Positions 4,162 to 25,971 of a DNA stretch of 52,102 nt are shown one piece after another (the first letter of the stretch is position 1; every line of letters begins with the position of its first letter). Source of the DNA: Merismopedia glauca CCAP 1448/3. Its GTDB lineage: Bacteria > Cyanobacteriota > Cyanobacteriia > Cyanobacteriales > CCAP-1448. Below the pieces are notes generated by a model. It did not search any database. It worked only from the letters and a program-made list of their open reading frames with translations, and was not told the origin of the DNA. Where the stretch lies: the NCBI RefSeq assembly GCF_003003775.1, contig NZ_PVWJ01000019.1, positions 1-52,102 of the forward strand, read 5' to 3'. The translations under genes were made by a program, and so were the position numbers.

Positions 4162-6591
4162 ATGAAAAAGCTGAAACTTGGGACTAAATTTAGTTTATTA
4201 CTCACAATTGCTTTTGTAGCTGCTCTGTTGCTTAGTGGGATAGTTTTGTCTCAAACCATTCAACGCAGAGCAGAAGCAGATATCACGACAAGAGCCGAAA
4301 TTTTGGCGAGAACGATTAACTCGGTGCGGGAATACACTAGTCAGAATATTCAGCCCCTACTAGCAGCTAAATTAACCACTGAACCCCAATTTATCCGCGA
4401 AACTGTACCAGCATTTTCAGCCAGGGAAGTATTTAATCGGTTTCGCGATCGCCCTGAGTATAGTGACTTTTTCTATAAAGAAGCAGCGCCAAATCCTACC
4501 AATCCGAGCGATCGCGCTGATGAATTTGAAGCTGAACTGGTAGAAAAGTTCCGCAGTCAGCCTGAGTTGACAAAACTGGATGGCTATCGCCAAAAGGACG
4601 GCAAATGGTTATTTTTTGTCACTCGTCCTCTGACACTCAATCGACCAAGCTGTCTGGAATGCCATAGCAGTCCTAAATTAGCCCCTCGCAGCATGATCGC
4701 TACATACGGTACGACAGGGGGATTTGGCTGGAAGCTGAATCAAGTCATTGCGGCTCAAACCATTTATGTACCTGTAGATGAAGTAATTACTCAGAGTCAA
4801 AAATATCTAGTTTTAGTCATGGGTATTTTTGTGGCGATTTTTGTCCCAGTGATGTGGCTACTCAATCGGTGGCTTAAGCATATGGTGATTTGGCCCATCA
4901 AGCAACTAACTAAGATGACTCGCAAAGTCGGCGCTGGAAATTTGGCGACTGAACAAATAAATGTGTTTGACTCTCGGAAAATTCTCAAAGTCACTAGACG
5001 CGATGATGAATCAGGAGAACTGGCTCGTGCTTTTCAACATATGGCTTATGAAGTAGCGACACGAGAGGAAAACCTCAGTCAAGCGGTTGAACACCGCACG
5101 GCTCAATTAATGGCAGCGATGCAAGAAGCAGAATTTGCCAAAAGCAAGGCTGAAGTCGCTAACCAAACGAAAAGTCTATTTCTCTCGAATATGAGCCATG
5201 AATTACGAACCCCGATGAATGCAATCTTGGGTTTTACTCAGTTAATGGTTCGCCAGGGTTCCCTCAATCCTCAGCAACAGGGATATTTAGATACCATCAG
5301 TCGAAGTGGAGAACACCTGTTGAAGCTGATTGATGATGTCTTGGAAATGTCGAAGATTGAAGCTGGTAAAACCACCTTGAATGAAAACATTTTCGATCTC
5401 TATGGTTTACTCAAGTGGCTACAACAATTATTGATCTTGAAATCGGAATCGAAGGGATTAGAGTTAATTATTGAGCAAACATCTGATTTACCGCACTATA
5501 TCTATACAGATGAGAGTAAGCTGCGGCAAGTGTTAGTTAATCTGTTGAATAATGCCATTAAATTCACTCACACAGGAAGAGTAACTCTACGAGCGCAAAA
5601 ACTACCCCAAACCTCTCCACCACGCTTACAGTTTGAAGTTGAAGATACGGGTGTGGGTATTGCTCCTTCAGAACTGGAGCGATTATTTCAACCTTTTGTG
5701 CAAACAGAAGCTGGTCGTCAATCTCAAGAAGGAACTGGACTCGGACTAGCAATTAGCCGCAAATTTGTGGAATTAATGCAAGGGGAAATTACAGTTAGCA
5801 GCACCCTAGGGAGAGGAACCATCTTTAAATTTCAGATTCAGGTAAAAATGGGAGAAGGTGAAGCGATCGCAACTCCAGCCTTGAACCAGCAAGTGATTGG
5901 TCTAGAAAACCCTGATCGCACCTACCGCATTTTGATTGCAGAAGATAAACCAGAAAATCGTCAACTATTAGTCGAATTGCTGACTCCCGTAGGCTTTGAC
6001 GTGCGAGAAGCCACCAATGGACAAGAAGCGATCGCCCTTTGTGAAAATTGGTCACCTCATCTCATCTGGATGGATCTGCGAATGCCTGTCGTCAATGGTT
6101 ATGAAGCTGCAAAACGTATTAAATCTACCATAGCTCAAGCACCAGTAATTATTGCCCTCACTGGTAGCGCTTTTGAAGAAGATCGGCTGATTGCTTTGCA
6201 AAACGGCTGTGATGACTTTGTGCGTAAGCCATTTCCCACCGAAATAATTTTTACCAAGATGGCTGAATATTTGGGAATTCGGTACATTTATACTCAAGAG
6301 CGGGGAATTACAGGAGATAACGGAGTATCTTTCCAGGCTTTTCAGAACCCAGTTAACTCTGTTACGGTTCCCCATCTCACTGCTTCAGATTTTGAGGGAA
6401 TGCCCGTTGATTGGGTTAAAGAAGTGTATAAAGCGGCAAATCAGGTAAATTCCAAGTCAATTATCCACCTAATTGCCCAAATTCCCCCATCTTATGCCCA
6501 TCTTGCCGCTCCTCTAACTCGTCTAGTGAATGATTTTGATTTTGAAGAAATTGTCCGTTTGACCAACTCTGATAGCTCTGCTACATATTAA
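4162..6591 (+). CDS. membrane hybrid histidine kinase with Tll0287-like haem c sensor
   Basis: 809 residues. A transmembrane helix at about 10-30 leads into a periplasmic Tll0287-like (DUF3365) domain with one c-type haem site, CLECH (Cys164, Cys167, His168). A second helix lies at about 213-235, followed by a HAMP segment, a HisKA domain (His346 in MSHELRTPMN), HATPase (DTGVGIAPSE; GTGLGLAISRKF) and a C-terminal receiver (Asp638 in HLIWMDLRMP, Lys in VRKPF). Covalent haem outside the membrane points to redox, oxygen or NO sensing, by family analogy. The gene is divergent from the REC-kinase/NarL pair, consistent with a phosphorelay. About 100 residues after the receiver are of unknown role. 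Confidence 0.92.
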   Translation: MKKLKLGTKFSLLLTIAFVAALLLSGIVLSQTIQRRAEADITTRAEILARTINSVREYTSQNIQPLLAAKLTTEPQFIRETVPAFSAREVFNRFRDRPEYSDFFYKEAAPNPTNPSDRADEFEAELVEKFRSQPELTKLDGYRQKDGKWLFFVTRPLTLNRPSCLECHSSPKLAPRSMIATYGTTGGFGWKLNQVIAAQTIYVPVDEVITQSQKYLVLVMGIFVAIFVPVMWLLNRWLKHMVIWPIKQLTKMTRKVGAGNLATEQINVFDSRKILKVTRRDDESGELARAFQHMAYEVATREENLSQAVEHRTAQLMAAMQEAEFAKSKAEVANQTKSLFLSNMSHELRTPMNAILGFTQLMVRQGSLNPQQQGYLDTISRSGEHLLKLIDDVLEMSKIEAGKTTLNENIFDLYGLLKWLQQLLILKSESKGLELIIEQTSDLPHYIYTDESKLRQVLVNLLNNAIKFTHTGRVTLRAQKLPQTSPPRLQFEVEDTGVGIAPSELERLFQPFVQTEAGRQSQEGTGLGLAISRKFVELMQGEITVSSTLGRGTIFKFQIQVKMGEGEAIATPALNQQVIGLENPDRTYRILIAEDKPENRQLLVELLTPVGFDVREATNGQEAIALCENWSPHLIWMDLRMPVVNGYEAAKRIKSTIAQAPVIIALTGSAFEEDRLIALQNGCDDFVRKPFPTEIIFTKMAEYLGIRYIYTQERGITGDNGVSFQAFQNPVNSVTVPHLTASDFEGMPVDWVKEVYKAANQVNSKSIIHLIAQIPPSYAHLAAPLTRLVNDFDFEEIVRLTNSDSSATY

Positions 6592-20681: not shown

Positions 20682-20769
20682 GAAACCCACCTTCGTGGGT
20701 TAAATTTCTCCGTTATAGCCCGCGCAGGCGGGCTTTGTTTGTATAGCCCCAGACTTCAGTCTGAGGGCA
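20682..20769. repeat. triple-hairpin dispersed repeat
   Basis: Three hairpins lie in a row: AACCCACCTTCGTGGGTT, AGCCCGCGCAGGCGGGCT and GCCCCAGACTTCAGTCTGAGGGC. Hairpins of this kind, often in this order, are a known dispersed repeat in many cyanobacteria. They end just beyond the 3' end of the TROVE gene and could terminate it. A related AACCCGCTTAGGCGGGTT hairpin lies at 36291-36308. Confidence 0.75.
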
Positions 20770-20778
20770 ATTATTGCC

Positions 20779-22383
20779 TTATATTTCACCACTCGCTAAC
20801 ATCTGAATTAATCTAGGCGTACCTGGATCGAAACCTGCAATATCCCACGAATTTGGATCTTGTGGATCGACTAGGGTAATATTGTAGGGAGCCAGAGAAA
20901 CGTAGACTGCCTTCGCATGAGGATTCACCTTGCGGCGATACTCAGCTAATGCTTGACTGGGATGGCTATTCCCCGCCCAACTTTCGCAATCAGTCCAAAA
21001 GCAGAAAATATCAGCTTTGAATTTCTGCCGAATCGCCCATTCATAGGCTACAGATGCATCGGTTCCCCCAAAGTTTTGGTTGCTAGCTTTAGCCATTGCA
21101 TCGCTAAAAGAATCTTTTTTAGTAATCTTTAAGTCGCGAAACTCGGTAGCAAACCCTCTAATTACATAGTTTTCTTCAGCTTTAACCGTAGCTAGTGCCA
21201 TAGTTGCCGCAATTTCACAGCAGGTTAACCCGATGGAACTCACGCTGTAGTATGACATCGAACCAGAAACATCCACTGCGTGTAAAAACACTTTTCCTGT
21301 AGGTTCTAGAGTATCAAAAGAGAGTTCTAATGCTTGCTCTAAAATATCCACAATCCGAGGTACGGGTTGCCATGTTTTTTGGCTTTTACCTAACTTGCCA
21401 CCAGATTGGTAGGTTTTTAACGCTTTCAGAACATCAATGGGGTGGATGCGTCCTTTCCGTAGGTGTTCTGCATTATTGATAACGCTGGCTACTCGTTTTA
21501 AGTTATCGCGGTTATCAGCAGTTAATACCCCCAATTCAGTTAAGGAACCAAGATTCCGCAACATGGCACCAATAGGCATTTCATTAAATAATAACTGCCA
21601 TGCAGTCTTATCCATTTTGCCTACGGGAGCAGCCATTTCATGAGTTAGCCTACCTTTTTTAATCGCCTCATGAGTCTTTTCGGGATTCCGTTTCAGCCAT
21701 TCGTACCACCAAATTTGCGCCAAGCTATCGCTAGGAATTTGTTGGGGTAAGGTTTCCCAACCTTGAGTTACCCACTTATACAATTCATTATGCTGTTCTG
21801 TTGGTGGTTTGACGTGGAATAGTCGCAATGCATCTCGGTGAGAGAAACCTTGACGTTGTTGATATTTCAAGAGTTGGTAAGCTAAGTCTTTGACATTACT
21901 CTTAGATAGCCAACTTTTACCAGCTTCGCGGACTATTTTGCCAAAACCGCGCATAGACTTGGTGTAGTTCAACCATTCATAGAAATGGCTTCCAGTACGA
22001 ACAACTTTAGGGAAAATGCTTTGGAAAGCCTGTTTTGCTTCTGGGGTTTCACCCATTGAAAGCAACACTAAAGCTAATAGAGGTGCGCTATTGTTAATGG
22101 CACGTCCATCGCTAGCATAGAGGATTTCGTGAGCCACTCGTTTGGGGTTTTGAGCGATCGCATTTCTCACAACCTCTACAAATTCCCCTGTTAATTCCTG
22201 TTTCCCTGCATAATGGGTGCTTTGAGCGGTGCCAATTAGCAAACAACGGCGCAATTGTTGCCAAATATCTACTTTAAACATCCAACCGCCAGAACGCCCT
22301 TGCACCATTTCGGCTTCACGCCCTTTTATGGGCTGGCTTTGGGGAGTTTTGCCTTTATTCTGGAATAAAAAATTATAGTTCAT
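20779..22383 (-). CDS. rsr: TROVE-domain Ro60 orthologue
   Basis: 534 residues from the ATG at 22383 (MNYNFLFQNK), chosen because GAGG precedes it by 7-8 nt and because it matches the length of bacterial Ro60; an in-frame extension of 41 residues is compositionally odd. The N-terminal part is a TROVE HEAT-repeat ring (GGWMFKVDIWQQLRRCLLIG, FLYA-like repeats, IRKG). The C-terminal von Willebrand A domain has an intact MIDAS, DVSGSMS (Asp371, Ser373, Ser375), and GGTDAS. Ro60 rings bind Y RNAs on their surface and misfolded RNA ends in the cavity; in Deinococcus they channel RNA to PNPase. Four tRNA-like RNA genes lie upstream on the same strand, supporting this role. Confidence 0.95.
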   Translation of the reverse strand: MNYNFLFQNKGKTPQSQPIKGREAEMVQGRSGGWMFKVDIWQQLRRCLLIGTAQSTHYAGKQELTGEFVEVVRNAIAQNPKRVAHEILYASDGRAINNSAPLLALVLLSMGETPEAKQAFQSIFPKVVRTGSHFYEWLNYTKSMRGFGKIVREAGKSWLSKSNVKDLAYQLLKYQQRQGFSHRDALRLFHVKPPTEQHNELYKWVTQGWETLPQQIPSDSLAQIWWYEWLKRNPEKTHEAIKKGRLTHEMAAPVGKMDKTAWQLLFNEMPIGAMLRNLGSLTELGVLTADNRDNLKRVASVINNAEHLRKGRIHPIDVLKALKTYQSGGKLGKSQKTWQPVPRIVDILEQALELSFDTLEPTGKVFLHAVDVSGSMSYYSVSSIGLTCCEIAATMALATVKAEENYVIRGFATEFRDLKITKKDSFSDAMAKASNQNFGGTDASVAYEWAIRQKFKADIFCFWTDCESWAGNSHPSQALAEYRRKVNPHAKAVYVSLAPYNITLVDPQDPNSWDIAGFDPGTPRLIQMLASGEI

Positions 22384-22751
22384 ATTAACCTCATTCAGCC
22401 CTTGAAGGGCAATAGTTTGACAAAAACTTGAGGATGCAACGCTAACAGCATCCGTAGAACCTGAGAAATCTGTGCTGTCTGAAAAACCACTGACAGCAAT
22501 CTGCAATCTCGATAATTATGGGTAAAAACTTTTGAGTAGCAGTACAGGAATAGCACCTGCATCTCTAGCAATCAAAGATTTGGTTAAGTTGTAGGTTATG
22601 ATAATTGATTCTTTTACTGCAAATACAGATCCAGCAGCACCCTCCCTCAACCATGCAAATTCCGATCTTTAAGCGAACTGCTACCAGTTGAGTAATCTCA
22701 ACATATTACTTTTATAATACATAGCTCTTACAAGTGTCAATTAAATAAATT
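22384..22751. other. spacer between Y-RNA array and TROVE gene
   Basis: About 370 bp. It contains a GCCCTT-G-AAGGGC palindrome near 22398-22411, just before the TROVE start, and AT-rich sequence that probably holds the TROVE promoter. I find no fifth tRNA-like unit here. The in-frame extension of the TROVE reading frame covers part of it but has no family similarity. Confidence 0.55.
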
Positions 22752-22877
22752 TGGTTGGCAGAATGGGATTTGCACCCATATAACCCGCTTAGAAGGCGAT
22801 AACCCTAATTCGTCGTCCTTTTCAGGCAAAAAGTGAAACAGGATGTTTTAGGCGTTCTACTATTAAACTACCTGCCA
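22752..22877 (-). ncRNA. tRNA-like Y RNA (YrlA type), unit D
   Basis: 126 nt. Acceptor TGGCAGG/TCTGCCA is followed by A and an encoded CCA. The D-arm is GTTT-AATAGTA-GAAC, and the T-arm is ATGGG-TGCAAAT-CCCAT. A stem CGCCTA/TAAGCG (one mismatch) stands where the anticodon stem should be. Instead of an anticodon loop there is an insert with the motif shared by all four units (22797-22819, minus strand AGGACGA...TTAGGGTTATCG), which folds as AAGG-A-CGA with TCG-C-CTT. It is nearest to the TROVE gene. A decoding role is excluded because there is no 7-nt anticodon loop. Confidence 0.82.
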
Positions 22878-22885
22878 AAGATTAG

Positions 22886-23015
22886 TGGCGCAGGGAACAG
22901 GATTTACACCTATATCTCGCGACTGGAAACGATAATCCTCATCCATCGTCCCTTTAGGGTAAGTTTGCGAATAAGGCTATACTCCGCGTATCCTACTAAG
23001 TTAGACGACCCCTGC
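22886..23015 (-). ncRNA. tRNA-like Y RNA (YrlA type), unit C
   Basis: 130 nt. Acceptor GCAGGGG/TCCCTGC is followed by G and CCA. The T-arm is ATAGG-TGTAAAT-CCTGT. The anticodon-stem equivalent is CGCGG/TCGCG, with a 4-nt variable loop AGAT. The insert contains the most diverged copy of the shared motif (22930-22952), which nevertheless folds into the best helix, GGGACGA with TCGTTTC. The 5' end lies 9 nt from the 3' end of unit B and its 3' end 8 nt from the 5' end of unit D, so the three are probably cut from one transcript. Confidence 0.8.
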
Positions 23016-23024
23016 TATGATTGA

Positions 23025-23154
23025 TGGTGCAGTAGAGCAGGATTTGAACCTGCGACATCGAAAGACGATAACCCTAATTCTTCGTCCCTTTCAGGTAAAA
23101 ATTGAACTAGGATATTTATAATTTCGCGCTCTATCCGACTGAGCTACCTACCGC
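23025..23154 (-). ncRNA. tRNA-like Y RNA (YrlA type), unit B
   Basis: 130 nt, the clearest tRNA mimic. Acceptor GCGGTAGG/TCTACTGC has 8 pairs, followed by A and CCA. The D-arm AGCTCAGTCGGATAGAGC has a normal GG in the loop. The T-arm GCAGG-TTCAAAT-CCTGC has the canonical TTC. A 5-bp anticodon-stem equivalent CGAAA/TTTCG and a 5-nt variable loop ATGTC are in exact register. In place of a 7-nt anticodon loop there are about 60 nt, including a small CCTGAAAGG hairpin and the shared motif (23066-23088), whose GACGA/TCGTC helix is perfectly paired. Confidence 0.85.
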
Positions 23155-23243
23155 ATAAAATTTCAGGAATTACGCAGTTTATACCTATATTAGTCAGGCA
23201 AACAAAATATAAAGTATATTTCTGACTTCTGACTTATTTCGTT

Positions 23244-23416
23244 TGGTGTAGCGGAGCGAGATTTGCACTCGCATCTTTAGCGATTAAGGGGGGGATCGAA
23301 TTCAGCGATAACCCTAAATCTGCGTCCCTTTCGGGCAAATCTTCCTCATTGGTATCTCTCTTCGCGGGAAGAGATTTACCTAGAGGGAAACGCTTTACTA
23401 TTAAGCTACCCGCCAC
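23244..23416 (-). ncRNA. tRNA-like Y RNA (YrlA type), unit A, enlarged
   Basis: 173 nt. Acceptor GTGGCGGG/TCCGCTAC has 8 pairs, followed by A and CCA. The D-arm is GCTT-AATAGTA-AAGC, and the T-arm is GCGAG-TGCAAAT-CTCGC. The insert has an extra hairpin (23351-23380, arms GGTA..TCTCTTC and GAAGAGA..TACC), a CCC-GAAA-GGG tetraloop hairpin and the shared motif at 23306-23328. It stands 90 bp from unit B and is the most distant from the TROVE gene. The larger insert suggests a specialised version. Confidence 0.78.
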
Positions 23417-23647
23417 ATGGGTAATTGTCGTTGCTCTTCAATCAATCTCGGCTTTTGGTTCGTTTCATTTTGGCTCTCCGTTGCTTCATGACTCTAGAAT
23501 AGGCTGGAGTTATTCCCCCAAGCTAATTGATGTATCAAAAGGGAAAAGGCTTTCTAGGTAAAGCTTTCAGAGCTAGGGGCATAATTTGAGCTAGGGGATT
23601 CCCCGAACTTTGCTGTATTTTTTCGACTCTAATCTAAAATTGATTTC

Positions 23648-24017
23648 ATGAAAGTCAGAGAAATATTGCGAATATTAGAAGAAGATGGTTGGTATTTAGC
23701 TAGGACTAAAGGAAGTCATCGTCAATATAAACCAATACGGTTCAGTTAAAGAAAAAGTTGTTAGTTTGGCTAACGAGAGATGTGGCATTCAGCCCATCAT
23801 CCAGAGACAATAAAAGCTTATCTGAACTGTATTGCAATATAAACATCCCCTTAAATCTGGAACAGTAACTATTGCAGGTAAAGGTAGTTTAGATATGCCA
23901 ATTGGTACACTAAAAAGTATCTGGCGACAGGCTCAAATTCCAGCCACGCAAACGGAAACAAAACCTCTAGATTGTCCAGAGCAGTCACTGGAAGAACCAA
24001 ATGAGGATGAAAATTAA
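23648..24017 (+). pseudogene. hicA: HicA toxin gene split by a MITE-like insertion
   Basis: The first 28 codons encode a typical HicA start (MKVREILRILEEDGWYLART, then KGSHRQYK). Reading then enters foreign sequence and stops after five more codons. From 23844 the frame resumes with HPLKSGTVTIAGKGSLDMP and GTLKSIWRQAQI. Deleting 23733-23834 plus one 10-bp target copy restores an uninterrupted HicA of about 85 residues with the catalytic His in GSHRQYK. HicA is a dsRBD-fold mRNA interferase neutralised by HicB, whose gene follows. The C-terminal tail after QAQI is longer than usual. A TTG at 23832 could still allow translation of the second half, but without the catalytic His. Confidence 0.85.
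23723..23844. mobile_element. ~102-bp MITE-like element with target duplication
   Basis: The element spans about 23733-23834. Its ends are imperfect inverted repeats: CAATACGGTTCAGTTAA at the left, and the complement of CAATACAGTTCAGATAA at the right (15 of 17 match). It is flanked by direct repeats CAATATAAAC at 23723-23732 and 23835-23844. Excision restores hicA. It has no coding capacity, so it would depend on a transposase elsewhere. A duplication of 9-10 bp fits IS4-like elements, but the family is not proved. Confidence 0.88.
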
Positions 24018-24018
24018 A

Positions 24019-24261
24019 ATGCGTTATGCCATTGTGATTGAAAAAGGTGAGAGCAACTACGGCGCTTATGTACCGGATTTACCAGGATGTGTAGCCGTAG
24101 GAGAAACATTGACAGAGGTACGAAGACTAATTGAAGAAGCAATTGAAATGCATTTAGAGGATATGCAAGAAAACCAACAAACAATCCCTGTTCCAGTTTC
24201 AACTTGCGAATATGTGGAAACTAGATGCACAAAATCTACTTCAATTAGTTTTTCTGGCTAG
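24019..24261 (+). CDS. hicB: HicB-family antitoxin
   Basis: About 80 residues from the ATG at 24019, preceded by GAGGA at 12-16 nt and beginning MRYAIVIEKGESNYGAYVPD. An upstream in-frame ATG at 24001 lies inside hicA and is less likely. The partially degraded RNase-H-like HicB fold is recognisable: GAYVPDLPGCVAVGETL, then EEAIEMHLEDMQE. It would bind HicA and repress the operon. The last about 12 residues (RCTKSTSISFSG) do not resemble the usual ending and may reflect a frameshifted end. With hicA broken, the antitoxin is no longer needed against its own partner. Confidence 0.88.
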   Translation: MRYAIVIEKGESNYGAYVPDLPGCVAVGETLTEVRRLIEEAIEMHLEDMQENQQTIPVPVSTCEYVETRCTKSTSISFSG

Positions 24262-25241: not shown

Positions 25242-25574
25242 ATGACGAATACGAAACTAGTGGATTCTCTCATCCAAATTATCGAGTCTCTCACGCCAGA
25301 AGAAAGCAGATTGCTACAACAAAAGCTTCAATGCAAAGCAATTCAACAGACAGCAGGTGTATGCGGAGGTAGTGCGCGCATTCGTAATACGCGGATTCCA
25401 GTGTGGACGATTATTTCCTTCAGGCAGCAAGGAGCAGATGACGAGGAATTACTGAGAAATTATCCCAGTTTGACTCCATATGATCTCAATGCTGCTTGGT
25501 CATATTATTTAAGTCATAGAGAAGAAATAGATCGCCAGATCGCCTCACACCAGGATGACGATCTAGATGATTAA
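25242..25574 (+). CDS. DUF433 antitoxin
   Basis: 110 residues. The C-terminal two thirds match DUF433 (VCGGSARIRNTRIPVWTIIS, GADDEELLRNYPSLTPYDLN), a helix-turn-helix-like antitoxin family. An N-terminal helical segment of about 30 residues precedes it. The stop overlaps the start of the DUF5615 gene by 8 bp, the usual arrangement of this toxin-antitoxin pair. It probably both neutralises the partner and represses the operon. Confidence 0.88.
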   Translation: MTNTKLVDSLIQIIESLTPEESRLLQQKLQCKAIQQTAGVCGGSARIRNTRIPVWTIISFRQQGADDEELLRNYPSLTPYDLNAAWSYYLSHREEIDRQIASHQDDDLDD

Positions 25575-25971
25575 GCTCTATTCTAATGAGAACTTCCCTT
25601 TGGATTTAGTATTGCTACTGCGCGAATGGGGATACGATATTCTGACCTCTTATGAAGCAGAACAGGCAAATCTGGGTATCCCCGATGAGGATGTACTCGC
25701 TTTTGCCACCGAACATGGACGAGTCACGATTACACTCAATCGCGATGACTTCCTGAAACTGCATCGTAACGGTGCTGTCCACCAAGGCATTATCATCTGT
25801 AAGGACGACAGAGATTATCGAGGTCAAGCAGAAATCCTACACAGTTTTTTGCAAGGGCAAATTACTCTGATTAATCGCCTGATTCGCATTCAAAAACAAA
25901 ATCAACCGAAGTCGAGCGGTCAGATATTCATCATTCGAGAATACTTCCCTAGCCTGAATTCGTCAATTTAG
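25567..25971 (+). CDS. DUF5615 PIN-like toxin
   Basis: 134 residues, DUF5615 (Mut7-C/PIN-like). The acidic residues expected for a PIN nuclease are in KLYSNENFPLDL, NLGIPDEDVLAFA and TITLNRDDFLKLH; a final conserved block is QGIIICKDDRD. It overlaps the DUF433 antitoxin gene by 8 bp. By family it should be an RNase toxin. The C-terminal about 25 residues (KQNQPKSSGQIFIIREYF) are less typical. Nothing suggests inactivation. Confidence 0.88.
   Translation: MIKLYSNENFPLDLVLLLREWGYDILTSYEAEQANLGIPDEDVLAFATEHGRVTITLNRDDFLKLHRNGAVHQGIIICKDDRDYRGQAEILHSFLQGQITLINRLIRIQKQNQPKSSGQIFIIREYFPSLNSSI

Follow-up and report, generated by a model that had tools for sequence, protein, structure and literature searches.

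A cyanobacterial Ro60 gene preceded by an array of candidate Y RNAs in tRNA strand order

The window, a 52,102-nt stretch of the Merismopedia glauca CCAP 1448/3 genome (GCF_003003775.1, NZ_PVWJ01000019.1), contains a Ro60/Rsr gene, which is preceded on the same strand by an array of tRNA-like units, U4, U3, U2 and U1 in order of transcription, with a weak further unit, U5, nearest to the gene (Table 1). The TROVE and vWA domains that a preliminary description of the locus had assigned to the protein were identified across its full length (PF05731, 74.1 bits; vWA_Ro60, PF25045, 142 bits), and phmmer aligned nearly the whole chain with Rsr of Deinococcus radiodurans (2NVO, E 9e-76) and with Ro of Xenopus (1YVP, E 6e-72), placing it as Ro60/Rsr. 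Residues K170, R174 and H187 (Xenopus numbering, counted on the 1YVP alignment), which we take to be important for Ro60, are kept in the window protein, and were found by regular expression in 88 of the 103 extracted Ro60 proteins, the remaining 15 being unresolved by that expression. No second Ro60 copy was found in the same genome, the protein itself being the sole match at E ≤0.001. A pnp gene and two rtcB-type genes are present elsewhere in the genome.

The units were compared over 81 loci, i.e. the window and 80 cyanobacterial Ro60 loci. By script, 76 of these yielded motif-anchored candidate units (129 in total, a few of them carrying spurious arms). A subset of 26 units of type A was aligned with MAFFT without regard to structure and folded with RNAalifold, resulting in an 8-bp acceptor, a D-arm, a long inserted arm and a T-arm. 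A covariance model (R1) was built from 26 units including U1 and U3 of the window, with U2 and U4 outside the build, and it recovered all four same-strand units that the preliminary description had placed here.

Table 1. Positions of the Ro60 gene and the RNA units in the window, with the supporting evidence.
Feature	Position	Strand	Evidence
U4: tRNA-ordered Y-type RNA, type B	23244..23416	-	R1 52.8 bits; Rfam tRNA 31.6 bits; type B alignment and fold
U3: tRNA-ordered Y-type RNA, type A	23025..23154	-	R1 96.2 bits; Rfam tRNA 45.2 bits; fold z -3.1
U2: tRNA-ordered Y-type RNA, divergent	22886..23015	-	R1 59.8 bits
U1: tRNA-ordered Y-type RNA, type A	22752..22878	-	R1 126.1 bits
U5: possible degenerate fifth unit	22536..22684	-	R1 21.8 bits
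Ro60/Rsr gene (TROVE and vWA), 534 aa	20779..22383	-	Pfam and phmmer

An acceptor stem, D-arm, T-arm and encoded CCA could be read in each of U1 to U4, as previously described. U1 and U2 have a 7-bp acceptor followed by A73 and G73, respectively, and CCA in the normal place, and in U3 and U4 the encoded CCA follows an 8-bp acceptor (ACCA). In the type B unit U4, the long-range arm pairs downstream; this unit also has an extra hairpin in the linker (23345-23385, UCUCUUC..GAAGAGA) that the other units lack. U5 was matched by R1 at E 7.6e-4 (5 kb searched, filters off), with a clear acceptor and T-arm and without a clear arm. Folding energy was in favour of U3, in the expected fold, and of U4 (z -4.1, yet no cloverleaf), and U1, U2 and U5 folded no better than shuffled sequences (z -0.2, -0.8 and 0.0), which is why folding energy is not the main evidence; the support for the units is comparative. 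Of the 23-nt motif said to be common to all four units, U3 holds an exact copy and U1 a copy with one substitution, while U2 and U4 fell outside the filters of the script. A 13-nt piece of the motif (at most one mismatch) occurred at 9 places in the genome compared to 15 for a reversed control, and motif copies beyond the array were accordingly rejected as chance matches.

Conservation of the fold was pronounced. With the 4-bp hairpin completed, 97.1% of the alignment cells of the 26 units pair, against 43–50% when the partners are slid. Changes on both sides were seen in 18 of 33 pairs and in 87 cells, compared to 24.0 ± 4.4 after shuffling (none of 500 shuffles as high), and most of this covariation sits in the acceptor, D-arm and T-arm. 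In the inserted arm, all three pairs of the outer Y helix changed on both sides; the inner Y helix alone is uninformative, since none of its pairs did so and four of the nine are invariant. When the best 300 of 328 R1 matches were listed and 11 ordinary-tRNA matches and one partial match in locus L074 were dropped, 288 units were left to be counted (284 in relatives and four in the window). In at least 262 of these, base -1 pairs with base 73, which makes the acceptor 8 bp long. A CCA is encoded in 107 of the 288 units, 31 in the normal place and 76 after an 8-bp acceptor.

According to the alignment, the elements follow in the order acceptor, TA at 8-9, D-arm, linker, inserted arm, hairpin, variable region and T-arm, so that acceptor, D-arm and T-arm stand in tRNA order. 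The inserted arm reads AUCCUUGUUC-AC..-CUUG-CCY-loop-RGG-NCGAN-GAAUnAGGGU, and is followed by UUA and a UCGN-7 nt-N'CGA hairpin. The elements UUG-CCC and GGG-NCGANG are conserved to a large extent and stand in the opposite order to those of the published Ro60-binding core (GNCGAAG / CNNUUGACC). In type B units (U4 and units of Pseudanabaena), the conserved 3′ strand is kept and its partner strand lies downstream; this consensus comes from nine sequences and is weaker. The reported lack of an anticodon loop was mostly wrong, as a perfect anticodon-like hairpin of 4 bp and 7 nt directly follows the motif in 50 of 86 type A units (counted for units ≤145 nt whose motif ends TTATCG). In the window, it is clear in U1 (4 bp, 7 nt), has 3-4 bp in U4 and a 5-nt loop in U3, and is weaker in U2. 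The three bases at the anticodon position differ between loci, and the hairpin therefore looks like a relic or a structural element; it is kept, and is not a decoding one.

Four packed units, which had been singled out as the special point of this locus, are usual in the clade: one, two, three, four and five listed upstream units were found in 1, 17, 26, 16 and 10 loci, respectively (n = 70, window included). These counts cover loci with at least 2.5 kb of upstream sequence, and are lower bounds in view of 28 lower-scoring R1 matches outside the listing. In many Nostoc-type loci (L006, L010, L020, L025 and others), a further RNA was located after the Ro60 gene (around 5650-5800), consisting of an acceptor stem, a T-arm and the same Y core without a D-arm, and followed by T-rich sequence.

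The RNA is linked with Ro60. Among 292 genomes of the phylum, TROVE was found in 30 and the RNA (E ≤1e-8) in 23, all of which are among the 30 TROVE genomes, with none among the 262 TROVE-less ones (Fisher p 2.5e-28, an optimistic value because the surveyed genomes are related). The listed RNA places are on the Ro60 contig, within about 3.5 kb of the gene. Twenty-four of the TROVE genomes carry the label own, same order or same class, and the survey detected the RNA in 22 of them. In the 23rd (G078), a targeted search located it about 190 nt upstream of Ro60 (58.2 bits), and in the 24th (G127) a divergent Ro60 is accompanied by an RNA of the permuted type. No relatives were found in viral contigs, either by protein or by core pattern. 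In being encoded beside Ro60, the units share a feature of bacterial Y RNAs in the wide sense.

They are best regarded as a variant of bacterial Y RNA and not as members of YrlA. In a check with the Rfam YrlA model, as previously suggested, the region 22380-23600 remained without a match at E up to 10. In the phylum, none of 146 genomes had a match over the 69-bit cut-off, and two weak matches were returned in the M. glauca genome (best E 0.6). This cut-off is strict, as candidates in phages and deep branches reach only 36-52 bits. The absence of a match is explained by the opposite strand order. In the Rfam alignment, YrlA runs from Y-stem through T-arm, closed acceptor hairpin and D-arm back to Y-stem, whereas the present units run from acceptor through D-arm, Y arm and T-arm back to acceptor, which makes them circular permutants of YrlA. 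According to PMC11472068, the YrlA domain of a canonical Y RNA itself superposes on tRNA by circular permutation. The units resemble YrlA (RF02553, crystal structure 6CU1) in their location beside Ro60 and in having a T-arm, a D-arm, an acceptor-like helix and a Y arm. YrlA, however, ends in the Y stem and has a closed acceptor, and the present units have free acceptor ends and a Y arm closed by a tetraloop, in addition to an anticodon-like hairpin, mostly 8-bp acceptors and a partly encoded CCA. The tRNA-order form explains why the YrlA model and ARAGORN overlook these genes, and why the Rfam tRNA model flags only some of them.

The two orders were compared by means of a counterpart model (R2), made from 21 units rotated in silico, and a version of it without the Y arm (R3), built as a control against neighbouring tRNA genes, a pair of which may mimic a permuted tRNA. 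RNAs at phage Ro60 loci favoured R2 over R1: Forza scored 71.8 vs 31.3 bits, Cashline 56.9 and 54.1 vs 40.4, Jessibeth14 64.6 vs 30.5, and Faust 51.5 (R1 giving no match there at E up to 0.1) and, in a second match, 49.6 vs 19.0. The window units favoured R1, and the maximum of R2 was 80.1 bits, across U2 and U1. The difference of R2 minus R3 was positive (+0.3 to +17.1) in 10 of 15 main candidates from Ro60 loci and in none of 12 adjacent-tRNA controls (-1.1 to -7.1). One main match per Ro60 locus was entered (two for L103 and L127), apart from L101:5004-5126, weaker matches in L105, L128 and L130, and non-strict ones in L095, L097 and L098; L102 (+0.3) was entered as positive, and L135 may be a tRNA artefact. 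The effective sequence number was 2.29 for R3 and 1.53 for R2, which works against a positive difference.

Candidates spanning two adjacent tRNA genes, i.e. Rfam YrlA matches in L091 and L092 and R2 matches in L107 and L111, were rejected and reused as controls. More generally, Rfam YrlA gave false matches of up to 45 bits across neighbouring tRNAs in tRNA arrays (L091, L092 and others), because the 3′ half of one tRNA and the 5′ half of the next imitate a permuted tRNA. In Gordonia phage Forza, an annotated tRNA-Gln overlaps a second R2 match (L101 5004-5126, 42.9 bits, Y arm +7.2), and is possibly a mis-annotated Y RNA.

The element GGUUAUCG and the hairpin after it also occur in the permuted RNAs of Forza and G127, which suggests common descent more than convergence. 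The RNA of G127 scored 44.2 bits with R2 (Y arm +1.6), near the level of artefacts; the basal stem of this RNA continues into a T tract, as would suit a free RNA that has its ends in that stem.

The core of the preliminary description, Ro60 accompanied by tRNA-mimicking Y-type RNAs, is thus well supported by homology, linkage and structure. The locus quite probably encodes a bacterial Ro60 together with four to five leader-array Y RNAs on a tRNA backbone, in circularly permuted order relative to YrlA. Several points weigh against this interpretation. R1 was built using two of the four units of the window, the E-values of R1, R2 and R3 are rough owing to short calibration, and U2 and U5 are divergent. 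No CCA is encoded in 177 of the 288 units, and four others have it at another spacing. The Y core agrees with the published motif in part only. The difference of R2 minus R3 was negative in five of the 15 candidates (phage Myrna, G038, G032, Bosea and G018), where the Y arm subtracts and the tRNA part alone is therefore alike. Adjacent-tRNA artefacts reached 43.4 bits with R2 (L092), about the level of G044 (45.1) and G127 (44.2), and Rfam YrlA missed the RNA of G127 at E ≤0.01. Genome G044 has a tRNA-order unit (69.1 bits), and its Ro60 is outside the cyanobacterial branch of the protein tree. Neither rtcB nor pnp adjoins the Ro60 locus.

In the proposed mechanism, the units of the leader array would be transcribed as one polycistronic RNA. 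Each unit would comprise a 7-8 bp acceptor with free ends, a D-arm, the Y-core arm (UUG-CCC-loop-GGG-NCGANG), the degenerate anticodon-like hairpin and a T-arm, and could be released by tRNA enzymes, with RNase P acting at the acceptor, 3′ trimming and CCA addition. Judging from Ro60 elsewhere, its ring would bind the inserted arm at the UUG/CGANG core, and the tRNA-like body may dock a partner that handles tRNA or other RNA. By analogy with D. radiodurans, the first candidate for this partner is PNPase; pnp is present in the genome. The complex of Rsr, Y RNA and PNPase in D. radiodurans (RYPER) is described in PMC7790460 and PMC8394870. The window resembles that system in its full-length Rsr homologue and its pnp gene, and differs from it in having several tRNA-ordered RNAs, for which tethering is a prediction.

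A serious, if rather unlikely, alternative is that the RNAs are bound by Ro60 and their tRNA body serves as a decoy or sensor for tRNA nucleases or repair enzymes rather than as a PNPase tether. YrlA has been proposed as a competitive inhibitor of an anticodon nuclease (PMC7790460), and the several units with different acceptors and the two rtcB-type genes would suit such a role; however, no nuclease or repair gene is adjacent, and the anticodon-like hairpin is degenerate. The units could also be cis-acting tRNA-like leader elements, e.g. sensors of tRNA-processing state or of free Ro60, and not separate RNAs. This fits their same-strand leader position and, in many relatives, the distance of about 35 nt between the end of the last unit and the start codon, but is improbable given one to five copies per locus, the further unit after the gene in many Nostoc loci and the CCA encoded in over a third of the units. 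Autoregulation by Ro60 could coexist with separate RNAs.

Read one way, the array gives tRNA-type RNAs, and read across unit borders it gives YrlA-type ones. That the permuted register is the real one is highly improbable. R2 scored 80.1 and 57.7 bits across neighbouring units in the window and 106.7 in L096, and Rfam YrlA 40.5 bits across two units in L074; R1 scored higher still (126.1 for U1, and 133.1 in L096), and the permuted register requires the CCC-GGG tetraloop to be cut. Pairing of the acceptor strands amounts to 6.93 of 7 positions within units and 5.69 across neighbours, and of 169 neighbour pairs 127 favour pairing within, 38 tie and four favour pairing across. Moreover, locus L005, in which one unit scored 121 bits, yielded no further match in 9.3 kb (E up to 10). 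The better pairing within units and this one-unit locus make the tRNA order the most likely functional register in cyanobacteria, as judged from the sequences.

We give almost no credence to the units being tRNA genes with odd introns or decaying tRNAs, since the insert is conserved, covaries and occurs only in Ro60 genomes, a pattern to be expected neither from decay nor from introns. The Rfam tRNA model does pass its cut-off of 29 bits for U3 and flags five units of relatives, and a focused search flagged U4 as well. ARAGORN by default called nothing in the window and touched one of the 284 units of relatives; when introns of up to 200 nt were allowed, it called 171 of the 284 over many different isotypes, and U3 as tRNA-Tyr(ata) with a 51-nt insert. 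When its threshold was lowered, it made six calls in the region, of which five (four isotypes and a Pyl call among them) were on the strand of the units. The tRNA-caller test proposed with the preliminary description thus left the Y-type reading standing, as no consistent isotype emerged; the units share no single anticodon, the flag of U3 notwithstanding. Forced inserts were 28-109 nt long among the rows listed, with inconsistent anticodons, and no group I intron family was among the Rfam matches in the window.

The distribution of the two strand orders was viewed on a tree of 36 of the 103 extracted Ro60 proteins, which is unrooted and for which the program warned of long branches, which meet. 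All 21 sampled tRNA-order loci were on one side of one branch (99/97). The tree group P stands for loci that are not in tRNA order; permutation is not established for L124, L133, L134 and L135, and the assignment of L100, L125, L128 and L131 to this group is weak. The Ro60 of G127 joined proteins of Streptomyces phages (98/99), and its Ro60 locus was, from the sequence, probably acquired from outside. G127 (L129 / L105), a genome of the same order as M. glauca, carries a permuted-type RNA beside this phage-like Ro60. In G044 (L130 798-920, 2907-3033), both strand orders were found within about 2.5 kb of Ro60, inside a tRNA array on one contig; the permuted RNA there scored 45.1 bits.

Y RNAs elsewhere have their ends in the Ro60 stem. 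The tree is unrooted and gives no direction; this background, if anything, suggests that the tRNA order is derived. For permuted RNA genes, gene duplication followed by loss of the outer halves has been put forward as a model (PMC3978253), and arrays like that in the window are the predicted intermediates of such a duplication-loss model. The likeness to circularly permuted tRNA and tmRNA genes lies in the same RNA occurring in two strand orders, and in tandem arrays being needed by the model (PMC3978253); those are RNAs of translation, whereas here a Ro60-associated Y RNA is concerned, for which the tRNA order is the unusual form. A possible, though somewhat doubtful, extension is that both Y RNA orders arose via tandem tRNA-ordered arrays, with loss of outer halves interconverting them and the cyanobacterial arrays as living intermediates, and that the RNAs mature entirely as tRNAs do, by way of RNase P and CCA addition and perhaps with EF-Tu or a synthetase; Ro60 would then belong to tRNA metabolism.

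A natural form in true tRNA order in many cyanobacterial Ro60 loci would supply a counterpart to the permuted Y RNA, and a testable route to how Ro60 RNAs came to mimic tRNA. The free CCA-bearing acceptor ends would provide a handle on the effector question, with RNase P, the CCA-adding enzyme, EF-Tu and PNPase to be considered, and strains of Nostoc and Pseudanabaena are possible test hosts. Among the literature matches listed, none dealt with Y RNAs of cyanobacteria, with tRNA-ordered Y RNAs or with the occurrence of both strand orders, a weak negative because the key Y RNA papers of 2013-2020 are outside the coverage. Chen in 2014 reportedly described probable Y RNAs close to Ro60 in over 250 species, and cyanobacterial ones may be included.

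Around the array, the promoter scan (5 vs 6.8 in shuffles) and the terminator scan (6 vs 3.5) were uninformative. An Rfam CRISPR-DR28 match at 20716-20739 was rejected, being a single palindrome that also scores as a terminator-like hairpin. At 23648-24017 (+), a hicA-like gene was identified as two HicA_toxin pieces (PF07927, profile 2-26 and 24-58). An insert of about 102 bp interrupts it, with direct repeats of 10 bp (CAATATAAAC) on either side and inverted ends of 17 nt that agree at 15 positions; by these features the insert resembles a small transposable element. Next comes a HicB-like gene (24001-24261). Further on, at 25242-25971 (+), adjacent DUF433 and DUF5615 genes resemble a toxin-antitoxin pair. 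A DUF433 gene also adjoins TROVE in the Ro60 locus of a Bosea plasmid (L125).

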